Shown piece by piece: positions 50,889 to 62,948 of a DNA stretch of 64,000 bases. Position numbers and translations under genes: made by a program. Location of the stretch: assembly GCF_021353235.1 (NCBI RefSeq), contig NZ_JAJTWT010000006.1:124001-188000 (forward strand). The letters run 5' to 3'. The stretch comes from Pelomonas caseinilytica. GTDB taxonomy: Bacteria; Pseudomonadota; Gammaproteobacteria; Burkholderiales; Burkholderiaceae_C. Within the stretch, counting starts at the first letter, position 1; each line of letters opens with the position of its first letter. The notes beneath the pieces were generated by a model, which ran no database searches, was not told the DNA's origin, and worked only from the letters and a program-made list of their open reading frames with translations.

Positions 50889-51557
50889 ATGCCCGCACCC
50901 ACCTCCGCGCCACGCGCCGAAGCCTTCACCGAAGCCGACCTGGAGCGCCTGCAAGCCCTGCTGGACGCCTTGCCGGCGCCGCTGGAGCCGTTGGATGTCA
51001 GCATGCTGGATGGTTATCTGTGCGGCGTGCTGCTGCAGCCCGAGCCGGTGCCGCTGGCCGCCTGGCTGCCCCCGCTGCTGGACAGCGAGGGCGGGCATCC
51101 CGTGCCGTCCCGGGTCGACGACGAGTTGCTGGCCCTGCTGCGCCGCCGCCACAAGGAGCTCAACGTCGCCATCGCCGCCCGCCAGTGGTTCGACCCCTGG
51201 GTCTTCGAGCTGGACGACGAGGCCGGGCCGAGCGAGACGGTGCTGCCCTGGGTGGCCGGTTTCGCCCACGCGCTGGACGCCCACCCGGCGTTGATGCGCC
51301 TGCCCGAGGAGCCGCTGCTGGAGCCGCTGGCCGCGATCTACATGCACCTGGACCCCGACGACCTCGAGGATGCCGATGCGCTGCTGGAGGAGATCGAATC
51401 CCTGGAGCCGCCGGCGGATCTGGAGGAGGCCGTGGAGGGCCTGGTCAGCGCGGTGCTGATGATCGCGGACGTGTCGCGGCCCTTGAAGCCTAGGCAAACA
51501 GCCGCCGGGCGTGCAGGCCCAGGCCGGTCGCGACCGAAGCAAAGCGGTCGCCGCTGA
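50889..51557 (+). CDS. YecA/UPF0149-family protein
   Basis: A 222-residue protein of the UPF0149/YecA group: AEAFTEADLERLQALLDALP, LDVSMLDGYLCGVLLQPEPV, FDPWVFELDDEAGPSETVLP and WVAGFAHALDAHP. The C-terminal SEC-C metal-binding motif found in many relatives is missing; instead a basic tail (RAGPGRSRPKQSGRR) overlaps the end of the convergent Hsp70 gene by 68 bp. A -10-like CATAAT ends 7 bp before the ATG and there is no ribosome-binding site, so the mRNA may be leaderless. Confidence 0.85.
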   Translation: MPAPTSAPRAEAFTEADLERLQALLDALPAPLEPLDVSMLDGYLCGVLLQPEPVPLAAWLPPLLDSEGGHPVPSRVDDELLALLRRRHKELNVAIAARQWFDPWVFELDDEAGPSETVLPWVAGFAHALDAHPALMRLPEEPLLEPLAAIYMHLDPDDLEDADALLEEIESLEPPADLEEAVEGLVSAVLMIADVSRPLKPRQTAAGRAGPGRSRPKQSGRR

Positions 51558-52758
51558 CGCGAGCGGCCCGCGGGAAGCCCGCGGCCATGCCGTCCACCAG
51601 CAGGCGCAGGCCGGTCGAGCCGCCGGTGAAGTACAGGGCGTCGATGTCGTCGGCCCGCAGCCCGGCGAGGGCCACGGTCTCGTGGGCCGTCGAGATGATG
51701 CGGTCGAGGTCGGCGCGCAGGGCGTCCACGGCCAGGCGCTCGCTCAGCGGCAGCACCAGGCCCGGCTCGACGTGGCCGAGGTCGACGGTGGTGTCGGCGC
51801 CGCCGGAGATGGCGATCTTGGCGCCCTCGGCGCGCGCGGCCAGCTCGTGGCCGAGGCGCTCTTCCAGCACCGTCATCAGCCGCGCATGGTGGCGCACGTC
51901 GCCGAACCAGCTCTTCATGCCGCGCCACTCGGCCACGCGCAGCGGGGCGTAGCAGGTGTTGATGAGGTGCCAGGTGGCGAGGTCGAAGTAGATGCCGCTG
52001 GGCACCTCGCGTCCGCTCGGACCGGTCGCGCGGTAGCCGAATTCGGGCAGCAGGCCGGCCAGCTCGATGTGGCGGTCGAAGTCGGTGCCGGCGATGTGGA
52101 CGCCGTGGCTGGCAAGGATGTCGTCCCGGCGCTCCAGCCGAGACATGCGCTCGGGGCCGACGCGCACGATGGAGAAGTCGCTGGTGCCGCCGCCGATGTC
52201 GGCCACCAGCACGAGCTGTTCGTGGCGGGCTTGCCGCTCGAAGTCGAAGGCAGCGGCGATCGGCTCGTACTGGAAGTGCACCTCGGCGAAGCCGACGGCG
52301 CGCGCGCAGGCCTCGAGCTGGGCCTGGGCCGCGGCATCGCGCTCGGGCTCGCCGTCGACGAAGAAGACGGGCCGGCCCAGCACCGCGCGGCCCGGCTCGC
52401 CGGCCAGGCGGCGCAGCCGCTTGAGGTAGCCGGACACGATGTCGGCGTACTTGGCGCCGCGGCCGCCGCCGACGTCGGTGGTCTGCTCGATGAGGCTGGA
52501 GCCGAGGATGCTCTTCATCGAGCGCATCAGCCGGCCATCGTGGCCTTCGACGTAGGCCGCCACGGCGGCGCGGCCGAAGGCGCGCGGCGGGCCGTCGGCG
52601 TCGTGCCGGCCTTCGGCGAAGTAGAAGACCGCCGTGGGCATGGTGCGCTGGCCGGGTTCCAGCTCGACGAGCTGCATCGCCCCGGCGGCATCGGGCACGG
52701 CCACGGCCGAGTTGGACGTGCCGAAGTCGATGGCGCAGAAGGCGGGGCGGGTGCTCAT
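51490..52758 (-). CDS. Short Hsp70-family protein (YegD-like)
   Basis: A 422-residue actin-fold ATPase. Phosphate loops are intact: CAIDFGTSNSAVAVPD at the start, VLVADIGGGTSDFSIVRVGP in the middle, and LYFTGGSTGLRLLVDGM toward the end. The substrate-binding beta-sandwich and lid of DnaK are absent, as in YegD. Chaperone activity is not established for this group. The ATG at 52758 gives the family N-terminus. It is divergent from prsT (84 bp between starts) and its last 68 bp overlap the YecA-like gene on the other strand. Confidence 0.92.
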   Translation of the reverse strand: MSTRPAFCAIDFGTSNSAVAVPDAAGAMQLVELEPGQRTMPTAVFYFAEGRHDADGPPRAFGRAAVAAYVEGHDGRLMRSMKSILGSSLIEQTTDVGGGRGAKYADIVSGYLKRLRRLAGEPGRAVLGRPVFFVDGEPERDAAAQAQLEACARAVGFAEVHFQYEPIAAAFDFERQARHEQLVLVADIGGGTSDFSIVRVGPERMSRLERRDDILASHGVHIAGTDFDRHIELAGLLPEFGYRATGPSGREVPSGIYFDLATWHLINTCYAPLRVAEWRGMKSWFGDVRHHARLMTVLEERLGHELAARAEGAKIAISGGADTTVDLGHVEPGLVLPLSERLAVDALRADLDRIISTAHETVALAGLRADDIDALYFTGGSTGLRLLVDGMAAGFPRAARVSGDRFASVATGLGLHARRLFA

Positions 52759-52842
52759 GACATCTTGCCGGCCCTGGGGCCAGTCCTGACAAGGGGGGCG
52801 GATTCTAGGAACACAATCGCGCGCCAGTTTCCCGGAGAACCG

Positions 52843-55629
52843 ATGAAGACGCGCCATTTCGCCCCGGTCCTGCTTGCCGCCGCCCTTGCCGGCTGCGGCC
52901 AACGCTCGGAGCAGGACCTGCTTGCCGCCGCGCAGAAGCGCATGGACCAGAAGGACACGGCCGGCGCCGTCATCGAGCTGAAGAACCTGCTGCAGCAGAA
53001 CGGCTACAACGCCCAGGCCCGCTTCCTGCTCGGCAAGGCCTTGCTCGACAGCGGCGACCTGGCCGGCGCAGAGATCGAGCTGCGCCGGGCCTCGGAGCTG
53101 GGCACCCCGCCGGACGAGCTGGTGCCGCTGCTGGCCCAGACGCTGCTGAGCTCGGGCCAGTCGCGCAAGCTCATCAGCGAGTTCGGCGAGCAGAAGCTGG
53201 CCAATCCCCAGGCCATGGCCGCGCTGCAGCGCCAGCTCGCGCTGGCCTATCTGGCCCAGGGTCATCTCGACCAGGCCAAGGAGGCGTCGGCGCAGTCCCT
53301 GCAGTTGGCGCCGGACAGCGAGGAGGCCGTCGTCGCGGGCGCCCGCGTCAAGCTGGCCTCCGGCGCCGCGGACGAGGCCCTGGCCGCACTCGACGGGCTG
53401 CTGCAGCGCGCGCCCAAGTCCGCCAAGGCCTTGCTGCTCAAGGCCGAGGTGTTGCTGTCGCGCGGCAAGCCGGCAGACGCCGAGCCGCTGCTGCAGCAGG
53501 TGCTGGCGCTGGACACCGCCAACCTCGACGCCCGTTCGCTGCTGGTCCGCCTGGCCTTCGGCCGCCAGCAGGTGGAGGCGGCCGCCAAGCTCGTGGAAGA
53601 CATGCCGCCGGCCGTCGCCAAGAAGCCGCAGGGCCGTTTCCTGCAGGCTCAGGTCGCGCTGGCCAAGGGCGATGCCGCCAAGGCGCGCGAGCTGGCCCAG
53701 CCGCTGCTCAAGGCGATGCCCAACTACCTGCCGCTGCTGCGCCTGGCCTCGGGCGCCCACCAGCAGCTCGGCGAGCTGGCCGATGCCGAGAACCTGCTCA
53801 ACCAGGCCCTCAAGCTGGCGCCCGAGGACACCTCGCTGCGCCGCCAGTTCGCCGGCCTGCAGCTGCAGCGCCGCGAGCCGGCCAAGGCGCTGGAGACCCT
53901 GCGCCCGGTGGTGGAAGGCGGCAAGGCCGATGCCGAGACCCTGCTTCTGGCCGGCAAGGCCCAGCTCATGCAGGGCAATTTCGAGGCGGCCGACCAGGCC
54001 TTCGGCGGCGCGGCCAAGCTGCGGCCCGACGACGCCAAGACCCAGGCTGCCCTGGCCCTGGCGGCCATCGTGCGCGACAGCGCCACGCCGGGCGGCGGCG
54101 GCCGGGCCAAGGCCGATGCCGCCATCGTCCAGCTGCGCGAACTGGCCGCCAAGGACGTCGGCAGCAACTACGACCTGATGCTCGTCAACACGCTGATGCG
54201 CCGGCAGGACCTGCCGGCGGCGCTGGCGGCCATCGACAAGCTCGAGCCCAAGATGAAGGGCAGCCCGGTGCCGGACGCGCTGCGCGGGCGCATCCAGCTG
54301 GTGCGCAAGGACACGGCGGCCGCCCAGGCGGCCTTCGAGACCGCGCTGAAGGCCGACGCCGGCTACCTGCCGGCCGTCCTCGGCCTCGTGGCCATCGACA
54401 TGCAGGCCGGCCGCGGCGATGCCGCCGTCAAGCGGCTGGAGAACTTCGTCGCCACCCAGAAGGCCGTTCCCCAGGCCCGCCTGGCCCTGGCCGACCTGCT
54501 GGTGCAGACCAAGGCGCCCGTCGAGCGCATCACCGAGGTGCTGAGCAATGCCGTGCGCGAGGAGCCGACCGAGGCGTCGCTGCGGCTGGCGCTGGTCGAC
54601 CACTACCTGCGCCTGGGCGACGCGGTGAAGGCTGGCCAGGCAGCGCAGGAGGCCTCGGCGGCGCTGCCGCTGAATGCCGACCTGCTCGAGCGGCTGGCCC
54701 GCATCCAGCTGGCCACGGGCGACAAGGCGCAGTCCGCCAAGACCTACACCCGGTTGACGGCGTTGGCGCCGTCGCGTGCCCAGGGCTGGCTGGGCCTGGC
54801 CCAGCTGCGCTTCGTGGAGCAGGACTACGCCGGCGCCGAGCGCGAGGTCAAGCGCGCGCTGGAGGCCGAGCCCGGTTCGGTGGCCGCGCAGCGGCTGCTG
54901 ATCACGCTGGCCGTGCGCCAGGGCCGCGTGGACGAAGCCCTGGCCACGCTGCACGAGCGCCAGAAGAAATCCCCGCAGGAGGCCTACGCCTTCATCGCCG
55001 AGGCCGACATCGAGCTCGGCCGCCAGCACATGGATGCCGGCATCGCCGCCCTGCGCAAGGCCATCCAGCTGCGCGACCCGGGCGACGCGCCGGCGCGCCT
55101 GTTCGCCGCCCTGCTGGCGGCCAAGAAGCGCGACGAGGCCCTGTCCTTCGAGGCGCAGTGGCAGGCGGCTCATCCGCAGGACGCCAACTTCGCCGCGACC
55201 GTGGCCGACGTGACGCTGGCCCGCGGCGACGTGGAAGGCGCGCTGGCCCGCTACGAAGTGCTGCTCAAGCGCAGCCCCGACGCCATCCCCCTCATCAACA
55301 ACGTCGCCTGGCTGCGCAGCAAGACCGGCAAGCCCGGCGCGCGCGAGCTGGCCGAGCGCGGCCTGAAGCTCAAGCCCGACGACGGCGCCCTGCGCGACAC
55401 CTACGCCACCGTGCTGGCCAACGAGAAGCAGTTCGACAAGGCATTGAGCGTGCAGCGCCAGCTCATCGCCGACCAGCCCGACCAGCCCAGCTACAAGTTC
55501 AACCTGGCGCAGATCCTCATCCAGTCCGGCGACAAGGCGGCCGCCAGGACGGAGCTGGAAGGCCTGTCCCGCCTGGGCAAGAAGTTCCCGCAGCAGAAGG
55601 ACGTGGACGCCCTGCTGAAGACGCTCTGA
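52843..55629 (+). CDS. prsT: PEP-CTERM-system TPR lipoprotein (PrsT-like)
   Basis: A 928-residue lipoprotein: signal MKTRHFAPVLLAAALAGC with lipobox Cys18, then a continuous TPR array (AGAVIELKNLLQQNGYNAQA, ARFLLGKALLDSGDLAGAEI, ending LKPDDGALRDTYATVLANEK). Length and start match the PrsT family, which accompanies exosortase/PEP-CTERM and exopolysaccharide genes. Ribosome-binding site GGAGAACCG precedes the ATG. No exosortase or polysaccharide genes are in the window, so it may serve a locus elsewhere. Its TGA is immediately followed by the convergent dadA stop, with no gap. Confidence 0.9.
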   Translation: MKTRHFAPVLLAAALAGCGQRSEQDLLAAAQKRMDQKDTAGAVIELKNLLQQNGYNAQARFLLGKALLDSGDLAGAEIELRRASELGTPPDELVPLLAQTLLSSGQSRKLISEFGEQKLANPQAMAALQRQLALAYLAQGHLDQAKEASAQSLQLAPDSEEAVVAGARVKLASGAADEALAALDGLLQRAPKSAKALLLKAEVLLSRGKPADAEPLLQQVLALDTANLDARSLLVRLAFGRQQVEAAAKLVEDMPPAVAKKPQGRFLQAQVALAKGDAAKARELAQPLLKAMPNYLPLLRLASGAHQQLGELADAENLLNQALKLAPEDTSLRRQFAGLQLQRREPAKALETLRPVVEGGKADAETLLLAGKAQLMQGNFEAADQAFGGAAKLRPDDAKTQAALALAAIVRDSATPGGGGRAKADAAIVQLRELAAKDVGSNYDLMLVNTLMRRQDLPAALAAIDKLEPKMKGSPVPDALRGRIQLVRKDTAAAQAAFETALKADAGYLPAVLGLVAIDMQAGRGDAAVKRLENFVATQKAVPQARLALADLLVQTKAPVERITEVLSNAVREEPTEASLRLALVDHYLRLGDAVKAGQAAQEASAALPLNADLLERLARIQLATGDKAQSAKTYTRLTALAPSRAQGWLGLAQLRFVEQDYAGAEREVKRALEAEPGSVAAQRLLITLAVRQGRVDEALATLHERQKKSPQEAYAFIAEADIELGRQHMDAGIAALRKAIQLRDPGDAPARLFAALLAAKKRDEALSFEAQWQAAHPQDANFAATVADVTLARGDVEGALARYEVLLKRSPDAIPLINNVAWLRSKTGKPGARELAERGLKLKPDDGALRDTYATVLANEKQFDKALSVQRQLIADQPDQPSYKFNLAQILIQSGDKAAARTELEGLSRLGKKFPQQKDVDALLKTL

Positions 55630-56912: not shown

Positions 56913-57551
56913 TCAGAGGGGTTGAAGCAGGAGTTGCAGGCCCAGGGTCGCCATCAGCAGCGCGACCCCGGTGTCGATGATCTGCCAGGTGCGGGCATGG
57001 CGCAGCCGCGGCGCCGCCGCCGCCGCGCCGAAGCCCAGCAGGCCGAACCACATCACCGACGCGAGGCCGGCGCCGATCGCGAATGCCGCGCGCAGCTGGG
57101 GCGGCTGGCGAGCCCCCAGGCCGCCGAGCAGCACGACGGTGTCCAGGTAGACGTGGGGGTTGAGGTAGGTGAAGGCGAAGGCGGCCGACAAGGTGGCGCC
57201 GAGGGTGGCGGGGTGGCTGCCCGCCTGCAGTCCGGCCGAGGGCCGCCAGGCCCGCCGCGCGGCCAGCACGGCATAGGCCAGCAGGAAGGCTGCGCCGCCG
57301 AAGCGGAAGACCTGGAGCAGCATCGGGCTTGCCTGGATCAGGGTGCCGAGCCCGAAGACGCCCAGGGCGATCAGCAGCCAGTCCGACAGCGTGCACACGG
57401 CGACGACGGCGCCCACGTGCTCGCGCCGCAGGCCCTGGCGCAGCACCAGGGCGTTCTGCGCGCCGATGGCCAGGATCAGGCCCGCACCCATGGCCCAGCC
57501 TTGGGCGAACACGGCGGTCGCGGCAGGGGAGGCCAGGGCGGAGGCAGGCAT
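56913..57551 (-). CDS. argO: LysE/ArgO-family amino acid exporter
   Basis: A 212-residue membrane protein. LysE-family marks: LILAIGAQNALVLRQGLRRE, then FAFTYLNPHVYLDTVVLLGG, and six hydrophobic helices ending LLMATLGLQLLLQPL. ArgO exports arginine (and canavanine) and is controlled by ArgP. The ATG at 57551 follows CGGAGAATCGCCC; an earlier ATG (57593) would add 14 residues with no ribosome-binding site. It is divergent from an ArgP-type LysR gene, the classic arrangement, so arginine or lysine export is likely. Confidence 0.92.
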   Translation of the reverse strand: MPASALASPAATAVFAQGWAMGAGLILAIGAQNALVLRQGLRREHVGAVVAVCTLSDWLLIALGVFGLGTLIQASPMLLQVFRFGGAAFLLAYAVLAARRAWRPSAGLQAGSHPATLGATLSAAFAFTYLNPHVYLDTVVLLGGLGARQPPQLRAAFAIGAGLASVMWFGLLGFGAAAAAPRLRHARTWQIIDTGVALLMATLGLQLLLQPL

Positions 57552-59231: not shown

Positions 59232-59852
59232 TCAGAGCTTGGGGATACGGATCCGGCTCACCATCAGCGAGCCCGAGACGGCGAACAGCAGCACCAGCGG
59301 GTGCAGGCGAAAGCCGCCCAGCCACCACACGCCGCCCCACAGCGCCTCGCCGATGGCGCCCTGGGCGGCGGCCACCCACAGCACGGCCACGAGCAGCATC
59401 GACGTCGGGATGGGCGTGCCCTCGAAGTAGGCCACCTTGCCGGTGCCGCCGCTGAGCTTCTCGGCCGTCACGTTGTAGCGGGCCAGCCGGCTGACGCCGC
59501 AGGCCACGAAGAAGACCAGGACGATGCGGTCGTAGAGGCCCTGCATGCCGCAGCCGTAGGCGATGGCCGCCGGCGCCACGCCGAAGGAAATGACGTCGGC
59601 CAGCGAGTCCAGCTCGCGGCCCAGGGCCGAGCTTTTCTGCCGCCAGCGGGCGATGCGCCCGTCCAGCACGTCGAAGGCCAGGGCCAGCGGAATGAGGGCG
59701 CAGGCGTACTGCAGGTGGCGGGTGTCGCCGCCCCGCAGGAAGCTCATCACCGAGAACAACGCGCCCATGCCGGCGCAGGCGTTGCCCAGGGTGAACCAGT
59801 CGGCGAGATGGAACTCGCGGATCATCGAGAACGGTTTGGGCTTGTTGTCCAT
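59232..59852 (-). CDS. pssA: CDP-diacylglycerol-serine O-phosphatidyltransferase
   Basis: A 206-residue membrane enzyme of the CDP-alcohol phosphatidyltransferase family. The catalytic motif D-G-x2-A-R-x8-G-x3-D-x3-D is present as DGRIARWRQKSSALGRELDS followed by LAD (about residues 63-85). Five or so membrane helices surround it (LADWFTLGNACAGMGALFSV at the start). The length and first helix fit the Bacillus-type PssA that makes phosphatidylserine, precursor of phosphatidylethanolamine. It lies 6 bp after the nucleotidyltransferase gene of the HPr-rel-A cluster, so a housekeeping lipid gene may be driven partly by that operon. Confidence 0.93.
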   Translation of the reverse strand: MDNKPKPFSMIREFHLADWFTLGNACAGMGALFSVMSFLRGGDTRHLQYACALIPLALAFDVLDGRIARWRQKSSALGRELDSLADVISFGVAPAAIAYGCGMQGLYDRIVLVFFVACGVSRLARYNVTAEKLSGGTGKVAYFEGTPIPTSMLLVAVLWVAAAQGAIGEALWGGVWWLGGFRLHPLVLLFAVSGSLMVSRIRIPKL

Positions 59853-59858
59853 GCGGGC

Positions 59859-60974
59859 TCAGGGCTGGGCGGCCGGGTCGGCCTCGTCCTGCTGGTCCCT
59901 GCCCGGCGGCGGCCGGCTCACGGCCTTGACGATCAGGTGGGGCAGCAGCAGGTGCAGGGGCATTCTCAGGTAATGGCTGCGCACGTAGAGCATGAATTCG
60001 GCAAGCCGTGTACCCGGTGCCGTCGAGCCGCGGTGGGCGCTGGTCAGCGCACGCTGCAGCACGGCGTCCATCAGGCGCTGCGCCAGGCGGCCGGGGCGCG
60101 AGGGGCAGCGCGCCAGCACGTCGTCGGGCACGGGCGTGTGCAGCCAGCGCCGGCACTGGGTCAGCGCGTAGAACAGCGGCCGGCCCAGGTTCAGCAGGGC
60201 GGCGCGCGCCAGCAGGGCCTCCCAGAAGCCGGCCTCGCGGCCATGCAGGCGCAGCAGGCTGTCCAGGTCGGCGAGGTCGCGCAGGCCATGGCCCCACTCG
60301 CCTTCGTGCATCAGGTGAGTGGCGCTGTGCAGCACCTGGTCGACGGGGGCCGGCACGCTGAAGCGCGGGAATTCCGGCACCGGCTGCGCCGCGGCCAGCA
60401 GCGGGCCGCACGGCGTCTTGATGCGGGCCGTGAGCGGCAGGATGTTGTGGTGCAGGTCGAGGTTGGTCTGCCGGCGCAGGTGGACCATGGGCGGCAGCTC
60501 GTGCATCCATTGGCGGTAGTAACGCTCGTCGTAGGCGGTGCCCGCGGCGCTGACCCAGCCACCCAGCATGAGGGCCGCCTCGGCCTCGTCGAGCTGGTCG
60601 CGCGGCACCAGGAGGTCGATGTCCGAGAACAACCGGCCGGGGGCCGGCGGCAGCTCGCCGGCCACGTAGGCGGCGCCCTTGAGCAGCAGCACCGGCCCGC
60701 GCAGGGCGGCCAGGTCGCGGCTCAGCAGGACCAGCTCCCAGCGCACCGCGCGGCGCTGCTGGTCCGACACGGCCAGCAGCGCCCCCATGTGCCGGCGCAC
60801 CGGCAGGGGCAGGGCGGCCTCGATGCCGGCCTGCCGTGCCAGCGCCGCCAGCCGCCCCAGCACGCCGGCTGAAAGCGCCTGGCGCATCAGCAGGTCCCAG
60901 GTGGCGTCGTCGAACGCGGCCATGCGGGCCGGTTCGCGCAGCGCCAGCAGCAGGGCCTGCCAGTGGGGCGTCAT
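59859..60974 (-). CDS. Nucleotidyltransferase of the HPr-rel-A cluster (NTP_transf_5-like)
   Basis: A 371-residue protein. A nucleotidyltransferase core is visible as GPVLLLKGAAYVAGEL, then GRLFSDIDLLVPRDQLDEAE with the metal-binding DIDLL motif (about residues 117-121) and HHNILPLTARI. The group (NTP_transf_5, PF14907) is found beside HprK-related kinases and PqqD-like proteins, and near exosortase or polysaccharide loci. It could transfer a nucleotide to a protein or sugar; the acceptor is unknown. Its ATG overlaps the kinase stop by 4 bp (60971-60974). Confidence 0.9.
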   Translation of the reverse strand: MTPHWQALLLALREPARMAAFDDATWDLLMRQALSAGVLGRLAALARQAGIEAALPLPVRRHMGALLAVSDQQRRAVRWELVLLSRDLAALRGPVLLLKGAAYVAGELPPAPGRLFSDIDLLVPRDQLDEAEAALMLGGWVSAAGTAYDERYYRQWMHELPPMVHLRRQTNLDLHHNILPLTARIKTPCGPLLAAAQPVPEFPRFSVPAPVDQVLHSATHLMHEGEWGHGLRDLADLDSLLRLHGREAGFWEALLARAALLNLGRPLFYALTQCRRWLHTPVPDDVLARCPSRPGRLAQRLMDAVLQRALTSAHRGSTAPGTRLAEFMLYVRSHYLRMPLHLLLPHLIVKAVSRPPPGRDQQDEADPAAQP

Positions 60975-61876
60975 GAGCGCAGGCCCTCCAGGGCGGCAAG
61001 GCCGTCGGGCAGGTCGGAGTAGCCGAAGTCCCAGCACTGGCAGCCATCGATGAGGGCGGCGGTCAGTTCGAAGCCCAGACGGCCGAGCAGGCTGTAGTTG
61101 AAGGCGTGGGACGCCAGGCGCTCGAAGGCCTCGCCCTTGGGAACGGGCGTCAGCCGCGTGGCGGCGCCGGCGCTCCAGTGCGGGAAAAGCAGCTGGGTCG
61201 GCCGCACCGGGATCAGCCGCCCCGCCACGCTGGCTGGCGAGGCCCGCAGGTGCGAGACCGTGCCCTTGTGCGTGTCCCGCGCGGCCTCGCCCAGGACGGC
61301 CTGGGGCGAGAACGCGCGGATGATGTCGATGGATCGGTTCTTGAGGCTGACGGGCCGGGCGAGCGGCACGGCCAGGCCGTTGTCGCGGTCGATCATGGCC
61401 ATCTCGTCGGACAGCAGCCGCCAGCCCGACAGCATCAGCGCGGCCGTCAGCGTGCTCTTGCCCGCGCCGGGGTCGCCCGGCATGACCAGGCACTCGCCGT
61501 TCTTCTCCAGCACGGCGGCGTGGAAGAGCAGGTGATGGTTGGCCTGGCTGGCCAGGCACCAGTTCATGCCCCATTCCAGCAGCGCGAAGGCGTGGTCGGC
61601 GGGCAGGGGCAGGAAGGGGCTGTGCTGGTCGAGCCGGAACTCCACCTGTGGGCGCCACCAGCGGCGCGGCCCGCGCACCGGCCGCACGTGGACGTGGAAG
61701 TCGGCGATGCCCCCCGGCGCCTCCACCTCGAAGTCGGCATACAGGGTGGCCAGGCCGTCAGCCACGGGAGCGCAGCGGCTGTGGATGCGGTAGGCGAAGG
61801 GGCCGGTCCGCAGGGTCAGGCCCTCGCGCAGGCGGCGCAGCAGCTCGGGCCGCTCGAGGCTGCCGACGGTCAGCAT
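60971..61876 (-). CDS. HprK-related kinase A
   Basis: A 301-residue protein related to the C-terminal kinase domain of HPr kinase/phosphorylase. The P-loop reads GDPGAGKST (134-142), with SDE (156-158) as the Walker-B-like site and HAAVLEKNGE before the loop. No PTS HPr gene is nearby, and the N-terminal 110 residues do not resemble canonical HprK. NCBI protein families name this type as part of the HPr-rel-A system, which has no assigned function. It overlaps the PqqD-like gene by 7 bp and the nucleotidyltransferase gene by 4 bp, so all three are coupled. Confidence 0.92.
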   Translation of the reverse strand: MLTVGSLERPELLRRLREGLTLRTGPFAYRIHSRCAPVADGLATLYADFEVEAPGGIADFHVHVRPVRGPRRWWRPQVEFRLDQHSPFLPLPADHAFALLEWGMNWCLASQANHHLLFHAAVLEKNGECLVMPGDPGAGKSTLTAALMLSGWRLLSDEMAMIDRDNGLAVPLARPVSLKNRSIDIIRAFSPQAVLGEAARDTHKGTVSHLRASPASVAGRLIPVRPTQLLFPHWSAGAATRLTPVPKGEAFERLASHAFNYSLLGRLGFELTAALIDGCQCWDFGYSDLPDGLAALEGLRS

Positions 61877-62145
61877 GGCTCGACGAGCAGCAGCCGCTCG
61901 AGCTGCTCCAGGGCGTCGCGGGCGCTGTCCTCGTCGGCCTCCATCAGGGTGGCCAGTTCCTCCAGCGTCGCTGGCGGCTGCTGCCCCAGCCGTCGCAGCG
62001 CCGGCACCAGCCAGGCAGCCAGGCGATGGGTGTCGTTGGACAGGGCGTGGTGGACGAGGCAGTCGTCGCCCCAGACGTGGATGGACAGGTCGGCCCCGTG
62101 GGTGAGCGTCCAGCGGGGCGGGGACGAGGAGGGGGGCCGGGTCAC
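61870..62145 (-). CDS. PqqD-like protein of the HPr-rel-A system
   Basis: A 91-residue protein from the GTG at 62145. The body (HVWGDDCLVHHALSNDTHRL, then a winged-helix-like end LATLMEADEDSARDALEQLE) is of the PqqD-related type that, in PQQ and other RiPP pathways, binds precursor peptides. A GTG at 62202 would give 110 residues, but the extra 19 codons run through a perfect hairpin (62168-62197), so I prefer the shorter form. No strong ribosome-binding site is seen for either. It most likely presents a peptide or protein to the kinase or nucleotidyltransferase. Confidence 0.78.
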   Translation of the reverse strand: MTRPPSSSPPRWTLTHGADLSIHVWGDDCLVHHALSNDTHRLAAWLVPALRRLGQQPPATLEELATLMEADEDSARDALEQLERLLLVEPC

Positions 62146-62167
62146 GGAAGCGGTCGGGACTGAAATG

Positions 62168-62197
62168 ACTTCGGGCGTCGCAGTGGACGCCCGAAGT
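62168..62197 (-). terminator. Strong hairpin between the Tat-signal protein gene and the PqqD-like gene
   Basis: ACTTCGGGCGTC and GACGCCCGAAGT pair perfectly over 12 bp around a 6-nt loop. It begins 23 nt after the stop of the upstream gene and is followed by CATTTCAG on the minus strand. It could partly terminate transcription or protect the 3' end of the upstream mRNA. Confidence 0.75.
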
Positions 62198-62219
62198 GTC
62201 ACATCGACTGCGCCGGTGC

Positions 62220-62948
62220 TCAGGAGTACAGGCTCTGGAAGTAGGCCAGCACCTGGTTGTCGTCCCAGTACACGCTGCCGTTGACCTGGTACTTGCCACC
62301 CAGGGGGCAGACCGCGTTGAACATCTTGATGGCCTGCGCCACGGTGATGGGGTAGTCGGTGCCGACGCTCAGGGCATTCAGGATGGTGGCGACGGTGGCG
62401 CGGCCCAGGGCGTAGATCATGGTGTCGTTCAGGCCGCCCGGCGTGTTCAGCACCTGGAGCATCGACGCCTTGGACGAGCAGGTGGAGAAGACGGGGTCGC
62501 GAGAGCCGTAGACGTTGCAGTTGGACGACTCGGACTTGTAGCGGAAGGCGTCCACGAGCGCCTGGCCGCCGCTCGTGAAGCCGCCGAAGACGGTGCCCTT
62601 GGTATTGTTGGCGAAGCTGCAGTTGCCGGCGGGCATCACGCCCTTGACGGTGCCGGCCGGCCAGCTCGCCGCGTTCTTCCAGTAGCCGGGCGACTTGCCG
62701 ATGGTCTTGCAGTCCACCTTGCCGGGGCGGGGCGAGGCATTGCCGGACATCTGCCCCGAAACGGTGCAGTTATAGGCCTGGGAGGCCAGGGCCGGTTTGC
62801 TCAGCAGGCTGCCCAGCACGACGGGCGCCGCCGCGCCCGCCTTGGCGAATTGCCGGCGAGACGCCACCACCCGGCCCGACGCGGCAGGCGGTGCGGACGG
62901 GCCGGCAGGCCCGCCCAGTTCGGGATCGGAGGGAGTGCGCTCATTCAT
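62220..62948 (-). CDS. Tat-signal, cysteine-rich exported protein (candidate HPr-rel-A substrate)
   Basis: A 242-residue protein. SRRQFAK (30-36) fits the twin-arginine consensus SRRxFxK, followed by a hydrophobic stretch AAAPVVLGSLLSKPALA with a likely cut before SQAYN. The mature part has six cysteines (61, 80, 110, 144, 157, 214) and the block CKTIGKSPGYWKN, which I associate with HPr-rel-A neighbourhoods but cannot check. Tat export implies folding, cofactor loading or modification in the cytoplasm before transport. The ATG at 62948 is preceded by AGGGTTCC. It heads the cluster; the PqqD-like gene follows after a strong hairpin. Confidence 0.85.
   Translation of the reverse strand: MNERTPSDPELGGPAGPSAPPAASGRVVASRRQFAKAGAAAPVVLGSLLSKPALASQAYNCTVSGQMSGNASPRPGKVDCKTIGKSPGYWKNAASWPAGTVKGVMPAGNCSFANNTKGTVFGGFTSGGQALVDAFRYKSESSNCNVYGSRDPVFSTCSSKASMLQVLNTPGGLNDTMIYALGRATVATILNALSVGTDYPITVAQAIKMFNAVCPLGGKYQVNGSVYWDDNQVLAYFQSLYS

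Follow-up and report, generated by a model that had tools for sequence, protein, structure and literature searches.

A Tat-signal protein gene is a constant partner of HprK-related kinase, PqqD-like protein, and nucleotidyltransferase genes in Pelomonas caseinilytica and its relatives: a candidate protein-tailoring system

In a 64,000-nucleotide stretch of the Pelomonas caseinilytica genome (contig NZ_JAJTWT010000006.1, positions 124,001 to 188,000; here called the window), four genes lie together on the minus strand between positions 62948 and 59859. In order, they encode a protein with a twin-arginine translocation (Tat) signal, a PqqD-like protein, an HprK-related kinase A, and a PF14907 nucleotidyltransferase. 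The question raised by this locus is whether the four genes form one system, and whether the first of their products could be the substrate of the other three, as a first-pass annotation made from the sequence alone had proposed. The four open reading frames (ORFs) of that annotation were all recovered: the Tat-signal protein P0001 (62220..62948; 242 amino acids), the PqqD-like protein P0002 (61870..62202; 110 amino acids, GTG start), the kinase P0003 (60971..61876), and the nucleotidyltransferase P0004 (59859..60974). The stop codon of the Tat gene is separated by 17 bp from the start of the PqqD-like gene, and the overlaps of 4 to 7 bp reported among the last three genes measured 7 bp (PqqD-like gene and kinase gene) and 4 bp (kinase and nucleotidyltransferase genes).

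To what extent the Tat gene belongs to this cassette was assessed in 299 genomes of the host's family, with 7 to 10 candidates scored per genome in each search. The kinase exceeded its model cut-off in 73 genomes (76 loci), and the neighborhoods of the 75 further kinase loci were fetched and their gene neighbors inspected. Kinase and nucleotidyltransferase were present at 76/76 loci and a PqqD-like ORF at 75/76, the exception (L132) being truncated at the edge of a contig. Of the 76 cassettes, 74 encoded a twin-arginine-leader protein; besides the truncated locus, L124 had an ORF without an in-frame leader. The gene for the leader protein immediately precedes the PqqD-like gene, except that in L081, L088, and L109 it directly follows the nucleotidyltransferase gene. 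Using the window Tat protein as query, matches were obtained in 18 genomes, in 17 of them beside an over-cut-off kinase, while the 18th match (G110, contig C308) contained two internal stop codons. A profile built from the 74 proteins (A1) yielded 85 matches of at least 40 bits, 76 of which were within 3 kb of the kinase. Eight of the remaining nine fell in ORFs of 1295 to 4460 amino acids, in which the mature domain was matched and the leader was absent. The ninth (G205) ended 386 bp before a contig end, with the kinase at the end of another contig, as expected if the two genes were parted by an assembly break.

By genome content, both genes were present in 72 genomes, the kinase only in one (G261), the Tat gene only in none, and neither in 226. 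The proportion of 72/73 is partly circular, because A1 was derived from the very cassettes being counted. This does not apply to the converse count, which rests on about 10 scored candidates per genome: none of the 226 kinase-free genomes had a leader-bearing match of at least 40 bits, and G249 had one leader-less match. Weaker A1 matches (∼20 to 24 bits), mostly restricted to the first 50 to 70 columns, were seen in unrelated proteins, as expected of Tat signals generally. The Tat gene is thus almost certainly a fixed member of the cassette, and the outcome named in the first-pass annotation as contrary to its proposal, a Tat family found mostly apart from the other genes, was not observed.

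Inherited synteny without a shared function does exist at these loci. The adjoining pssA gene (CDP-diacylglycerol--serine O-phosphatidyltransferase) recurred in the fetched stretches of 23/76 family loci and the YpfJ-type peptidase gene in those of 19/76, and neither was present in any of 54 stretches from elsewhere in the phylum. As an explanation for the Tat gene, however, it is scarcely credible: unlike pssA, this gene keeps its place next to the kinase in the wider phylum, it accompanies the kinase on the opposite flank of the cassette in the three loci named above, and its family is absent from kinase-free genomes. The distribution over the 299 genomes already largely refutes the idea.

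The phylum sample comprised 398 genomes (6 to 8 candidates scored per genome for kinase and XrtA). The kinase was over the cut-off in 61 of them, including 58 outside the host's family, and wide stretches were obtained for 54 of these 58 (not for G319, G374, G469, and G485). A Tat profile derived from the family only matched 36/54 loci, and a leader profile, trained in part on those same 36 loci, matched 47/54, in both cases with a single match per locus that lay beside the kinase. The PqqD-like and nucleotidyltransferase profiles each matched 44/54. On visual inspection, two of the loci missed by the leader profile (L205 and L207) had an obvious leader in the expected position; L198 had neither a leader-profile nor a PqqD-like match, and at L213 a PqqD-like ORF was present and no leader gene was seen. 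The arrangement is also apparent in RefSeq records. In Sphingomonas parapaucimobilis (NZ_CP155749), a hypothetical protein, PqqD, kinase, and nucleotidyltransferase are annotated, and on a Vibrio alfacsensis plasmid (NZ_CP140104) a hypothetical protein, kinase, and nucleotidyltransferase; both hypothetical proteins have RR leaders and no NCBIfam match. Close copies are also present in the Pelomonas sp. Root strains of L008 to L010. A plasmid search with P0004 returned 4 records.

In the window protein, SRR at residues 30 to 32 (RR at 31-32) is followed by a hydrophobic stretch, and the host genome encodes TatC over the cut-off (223 bits), which makes P0001 a predicted Tat substrate. The leader extends over approximately residues 1 to 55, a boundary set without a cleavage-site prediction tool. 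Proteins from 74 of the 76 family loci (leaving out L132 and L124; the ORFs of L094, L098, L099, L104, and others were picked by eye) could be aligned as one, highly divergent family, in which the first arginine was conserved in 73/74 and the second in 74/74. None of the 74 matched a Pfam or NCBIfam model (E ≤ 0.01), nor did any match a PEP-CTERM model at its C terminus. The description of P0001 as a six-cysteine protein holds for the window protein, with all six residues (61, 80, 110, 144, 157, and 214) past the signal, and fails as a feature of the family, whose members have 0 to 11 cysteines after the leader. C61 is the sole near-invariant one (72/74) and belongs to a post-leader motif, C61-x2-S64-G-x2-S68. 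S or T occupied the S64 column in 71/74 proteins and S the S68 column in 71/74. The family consensus reads C-x(2,3)-[ST]-[GA]-x2-S, usually followed by N-x-S, and its strict regular expression matched 61/74. Further conserved elements of the exported part are SPGYW-like, W, A-x-LNA (L in 71/74, N in 68/74), and a YL-like C-terminal end. Since the columns listed as at least 90% conserved by the alignment tool are M1, R31, R32, C61, S68, L190, and N191, S68 is the sole hydroxyl residue among them. The predicted structure of the Tat protein (pLDDT, i.e., predicted local distance difference test, 34) was of no use, and a PDB search with the Tat profile matched the leader part alone (E = 0.021).

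In the other Tat classes, the leader is alike and the exported part is another domain, giving at least three different exported domains in all. Thirty-one of these proteins (28 from the phylum loci and 3 from the family) share the C-terminal motif [ST]-C-W-x-S, in which C, W, and S are invariant (31/31), while six further proteins and those of L207, L210, and L211 end in T-C-[FY]-A-S. The sequence C-x2-S recurs in every Tat-protein group and may or may not represent a common modification site. A conserved leader joined to an exchangeable core follows the logic of the precursors of ribosomally synthesized and posttranslationally modified peptides (RiPPs). In the narrow sense of the term, the cassette would produce a secreted RiPP, whose Tat leader is removed and whose modified core is released as a toxin or signal instead of being kept at the surface. 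Such a product would fit the conserved leader with its variable core, the tandem Tat genes in G052 and G168, and an enzyme trio that is the same as in the clusters for lasso peptides and for linear polyphosphorylated peptides (LPPs). We nevertheless regard it as improbable: the cores, of ∼100 to 200 amino acids and with many conserved structural residues, look like folded domains, and the mature domain is also found within the ORFs of 1295 to 4460 amino acids.

Some further arrangements of the Tat protein family were noted. The tandem pairs (G052:C22 [L099] and G168:C56 [L074]) each lie upstream of one cassette. The mature domain (columns ∼65 to 179) is present, often twice, inside the long leader-less ORFs (G052:C63, G296:C2 [L221], G246:C166, G011:C8, G168:C56, and G249:C227). 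At L219 (G333:C25), a below-cut-off HprK-like kinase is accompanied by two small tandem Cys-rich RR-leader proteins and a PqqD-like ORF.

Both presumptive catalytic proteins have retained their key residues. The kinase scored 375.3 bits against TIGR04352 (cut-off, 200), and its H119, P-loop K140, D157, and E158 were invariant in 130/130 sequences, as were G139, T142, E101, N105, G205, and N260; the P-loop GDPGAGKST reported by the first-pass annotation begins at residue 134. HprK structures 1jb1 and 2qmh were found as PDB relatives (E = 0.003). The nucleotidyltransferase scored 174.5 bits against PF14907 (cut-off, 31.2), and K99, G100, D118, D120, and D173 were invariant in 120/120 sequences; the DIDLL motif, likewise reported earlier, begins at residue 118. 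Only chance-level matches (E = 0.45 and worse, prion chains) were obtained in a PDB search with P0004. A second, distant HprK-like gene was noted in genome G000 (C1:188487-189002, L002; 38 bits to TIGR04352), adjoined by nucleotidyltransferase-like and radical S-adenosylmethionine-like ORFs; no PqqD or Tat gene was seen there by eye.

The PqqD-like protein P0002 scored 30.5 bits against TIGR04353, under the cut-off of 35. Among 68 of 75 relatives that were aligned (A2; L069, L073, L085, L099, L100, L115, and L116 were left out), 63 matched TIGR04353 at E ≤ 0.001, a threshold on E and not the model cut-off. Searching the PDB with a profile of the 68 retrieved the RiPP recognition elements (RREs) TfuB1 (6jx3, E = 2.1e-6) and TbiB1 (5v1u, E = 7.6e-5) of lasso peptide systems, and 1/68 members additionally matched a lasso PqqD model. 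On these grounds P0002 is predicted to be a discrete RRE protein, as in the lasso and LPP modules. An AlphaFold model of low confidence (pLDDT 54) has the order β-β-β-α-α-α. With this model, Foldseek returned nothing at E ≤ 0.001, and VIA-align returned helix-turn-helix and sigma factor chains with Z scores up to 5.5, in which only helices were matched; lasso RREs were absent from the fold-search lists, which excludes nothing. In a regulatory set, a winged-helix PqqD-like protein and the kinase would respond to a signal by adjusting Tat-gene expression, much as HPr is under the control of HprK. Such a set would agree with these winged-helix and sigma factor matches and with single relatives that match MarR and ArsR models. 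It is very unlikely, given the TIGR04353 matches and the lasso RREs as the best PDB matches of the profile; moreover, it has no place for the nucleotidyltransferase, and the correlation between the mature part of the Tat protein and the kinase described below speaks against it.

What might such a set of enzymes do to the Tat protein? Tested analogues of the trio are described in reviews (PMC9266682, PMC8498205, and PMC7533575), on whose accounts we draw for paeninodin and pseudomycoidin. In paeninodin, the C-terminal serine of the precursor is phosphorylated by PadeK (PMC9266682), and in pseudomycoidin one or two hexoses are put on the phosphoserine by PsmN (PMC9266682 and PMC8498205). As described there, the lasso tailoring systems (PadeK, ThcoK, SyanK, and PsmK/PsmN) share with the cassette an HprK-like kinase, a nucleotidyltransferase, and an RRE, B1 (PMC9266682). 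In contrast, they act together with B2 and C on the C-terminal serine of a short peptide, whereas the Tat proteins rarely end in serine, and no lasso enzymes were found among the genes flanking the cassette in the window, two per side (neighbors pssA and YpfJ). The LPP clusters of Bacillota, described in 2026, encode the RRE LppB, the kinase LppK, and the nucleoside triphosphate (NTP) transferase LppN (PMC13381572). According to the available text of that paper, the precursor is conserved at its N terminus and variable at its C terminus, the clusters are reported from capsular polysaccharide loci, and LppK phosphorylates S3, directly after the leader, together with LppB (PMC13381572). The cassette resembles them in its conserved-leader/variable-core precursor, discrete RRE, HprK-like kinase, and NTP transferase. 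It differs in that its leader is a Tat signal and its exported parts comprise ∼100 to 200 amino acids, while LPPs use an SpI-like peptidase of their own (LppS), an MsbA-like exporter (LppD), and a YxxP leader motif (PMC13381572). In the available text of the same paper, we found neither Proteobacteria nor Tat mentioned.

With the HPr-rel-A system, the cassette shares a kinase over the TIGR04352 cut-off and an adjoining nucleotidyltransferase; its PqqD-like protein matches the TIGR04353 family below the model cut-off. The Tat protein, however, lies outside all NCBIfam and Pfam models, and the family names give no substrate, export route, or XrtA link. No paper naming the HPr-rel-A system, HprK-related kinase A, or the Tat partner was found in the Creative Commons-licensed literature of PubMed Central.

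The near-constant Tat partner and the likeness to a known peptide-tailoring kit suggest that the three-enzyme set probably adds phosphate or sugar to the Tat protein before export. Following the paeninodin, pseudomycoidin, and LPP precedents, we propose that the Tat-signal precursor is made in the cytoplasm and would be brought by the PqqD-like, RRE-type protein to the HprK-type kinase, which would phosphorylate one of its serines. The nucleotidyltransferase would then put a second group, hexose or nucleotide, on the phosphate, and the modified, folded protein would exit via the Tat translocon to act in the envelope, where in the host's family it would work alongside the exopolysaccharide system of XrtA/PEP-CTERM. 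A modification that consumes ATP has to take place before export, in keeping with routing through Tat. In the window protein, the candidate acceptors are S68 or S64; in the other two Tat groups, the candidate is the serine of the C-terminal C-[WFY]-x-S. With moderate confidence, we consider the four genes to be one protein-tailoring system of this kind, including Tat export and the envelope role. That the kinase acts on the Tat protein is likewise somewhat favored, on the strength of the gene association. By analogy, the nucleotidyltransferase could possibly add sugar or nucleotide to the resulting phosphate, and binding of the leader by the PqqD-like protein is an equally tentative suggestion. 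The cassette may plausibly be regarded as a Gram-negative, Tat-routed version of the RiPP-style HprK/NTP transferase/RRE module.

Co-variation among the cassette parts was analyzed by partial correlation of distance matrices, with 2000 permutations each. The mature part of the Tat protein correlated with the kinase (0.375 after removing the nucleotidyltransferase) and with the PqqD-like protein (0.185), and the leader correlated with the kinase (0.243) and the nucleotidyltransferase (0.214); none of the 2000 permutations reached the observed value in any of these cases. The correlation between mature part and nucleotidyltransferase was weak (0.078, 43/2000 permutations).

Apart from the limits of the genome counts given above, several observations weigh against the proposed tailoring of the Tat protein. 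Leader and PqqD-like protein showed no signal of co-variation (0.046, with 133/2000 permutations as high). Since the mature part does correlate with the PqqD-like protein, the latter may recognize the mature part of the Tat protein instead. None of the 74 Tat proteins carries [Y/W]xxP, the leader motif that goes with lasso and LPP RREs, and there is no single serine motif that every group of Tat proteins shares. A C-terminal serine, considered as the family's phosphorylation site by analogy to PadeK, had to be rejected, as only 11/74 proteins end in serine, the window protein being one that does. The second acidic residue of the kinase differs, D-E being present where H-K-D-D is described for lasso kinases (PMC9266682). 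In the LPP system, deletion of LppN is reported to have had no visible effect (PMC13381572). Finally, L175, L176, and L189 are loci with an over-cut-off kinase and neither a Tat nor a PqqD-like gene. The protein-modification reading put forward in the first-pass annotation is supported in part, by the Tat gene in the cassette, the invariant catalytic residues, and the published precedent for the same trio; binding of the leader by the PqqD-like protein gained no support from the co-variation test.

In the host's family, the kinase closely tracks XrtA. XrtA was over the cut-off in 79/299 genomes, with 6 to 8 candidates scored per genome, and 70 genomes had both, 3 the kinase only, 9 XrtA only, and 217 neither (Fisher p = 4.5e-54, a value that overstates independence because the genomes are related). 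In 24 same-contig pairs picked by eye, kinase and XrtA were within 17 kb of each other in 9 cases and within 58 kb in 16. The stretches fetched for the 76 family loci contained PrsT in 16, PrsK in 14, PrsR in 14, and the export gene in 9 cases; PrsT was confirmed, in the window, and the other three names are our reading of the sequences. The host genome itself encodes XrtA over the cut-off on a contig separate from the cassette. Across the phylum, 25 genomes had both, 36 the kinase only, 10 XrtA only, and 327 neither (p = 2e-15). That 36/61 kinase genomes were without XrtA over the cut-off speaks against a general link: kinase and XrtA go together closely in certain lineages but not throughout. 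From inspection of the lists, cassettes of the CWxS type were mostly in the kinase-only group. The cassette thus shares genomes with the XrtA/PEP-CTERM system in the host's family, with prsT present in the window, and differs from it in the kinase genomes lacking XrtA and in Tat proteins that match no PEP-CTERM model. HPr, PqqD, and nucleotidyltransferase go unmentioned in the available main text of PMC1569441 on XrtA/PEP-CTERM.

The link to XrtA also raises the question of whether the enzymes modify a non-Tat target, e.g., an XrtA exopolysaccharide or lipid-carrier intermediate, with the Tat protein as an exported partner or enzyme handling the product in the periplasm. Consistent with such a target, the kinase tracks XrtA in the family, prsT, prsK, prsR, and export-gene neighbors occur in 9 to 16 of the 76 loci each, and two of the three kinases without PqqD-like and Tat genes (L176 and L189) lie beside sugar-related ORFs. 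A PqqD-like/RRE protein implies a ribosomal substrate, however; the HprK-like kinases tested so far, as far as the available text of PMC9266682 and PMC13381572 describes them, act on proteins or peptides; and no exopolysaccharide neighbor is as constant as the Tat gene. We therefore consider a non-Tat target rather unlikely. By eye, the ORF next to the L176 kinase is glycosyltransferase-like and that next to the L189 kinase UDP/GDP-sugar dehydrogenase-like.

With the proposed tailoring of the Tat protein, the named enzyme set gains a concrete candidate substrate and residue as well as a physiological setting. Should the proposal hold, the HprK/NTP transferase/RRE tailoring of mostly Gram-positive lasso and LPP peptides would extend to Tat-exported proteins of full size in Pseudomonadota, with a tie to the XrtA exopolysaccharide system in one large family. 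The XrtA link, the exchangeable exported domains, and the LPP and lasso precedents go beyond the first-pass annotation. The gene association that it described is confirmed, more strongly than it could have known, and its interpretation is plausible and has tested analogues. A bolder and rather doubtful extension would be a Gram-negative class of tailored proteins in which the Tat signal doubles as a RiPP leader. Here, a domain of 100 to 200 amino acids would be phosphorylated, probably phospho-glycosylated, on a conserved serine in the cytoplasm and exported folded to build or anchor an envelope of XrtA exopolysaccharide; lineages would exchange the exported domain and retain leader and enzymes.

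The neighboring pssA gene is probably outside the system. It (59232..59852, minus strand; TIGR00473, 115.3 bits, cut-off 107) starts 6 bp downstream of the nucleotidyltransferase gene, and the YpfJ-type zinc peptidase gene lies on the far side of the cassette from pssA. According to PMC7157517, archaeosortase lipid anchoring requires PssA homologues; a place for pssA as fifth member, suggested by this parallel, was rejected on the distribution given above. An S1C serine protease was likewise rejected as a fixed member (16/76 family and 6/54 phylum loci in the fetched stretches); a same-strand S1C-type gene follows the nucleotidyltransferase gene in L068, L069, L071, L072, L083, L096, L113, L120, and others. 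Outside the cassette, prsT (52867..55566, plus strand), coding for the XrtA/PEP-CTERM tetratricopeptide repeat protein, matched TIGR02917 with 598.4 bits (cut-off, 312.2) over residues 453 to 1352 of ORF 51511-55629, which ends ∼3.7 kb beyond pssA. An Rfam scan of the window gave no match. Between positions 56913 and 58530, the window contains an ordinary divergent pair of an ArgP/LysG-type regulator and a lysine/arginine exporter.

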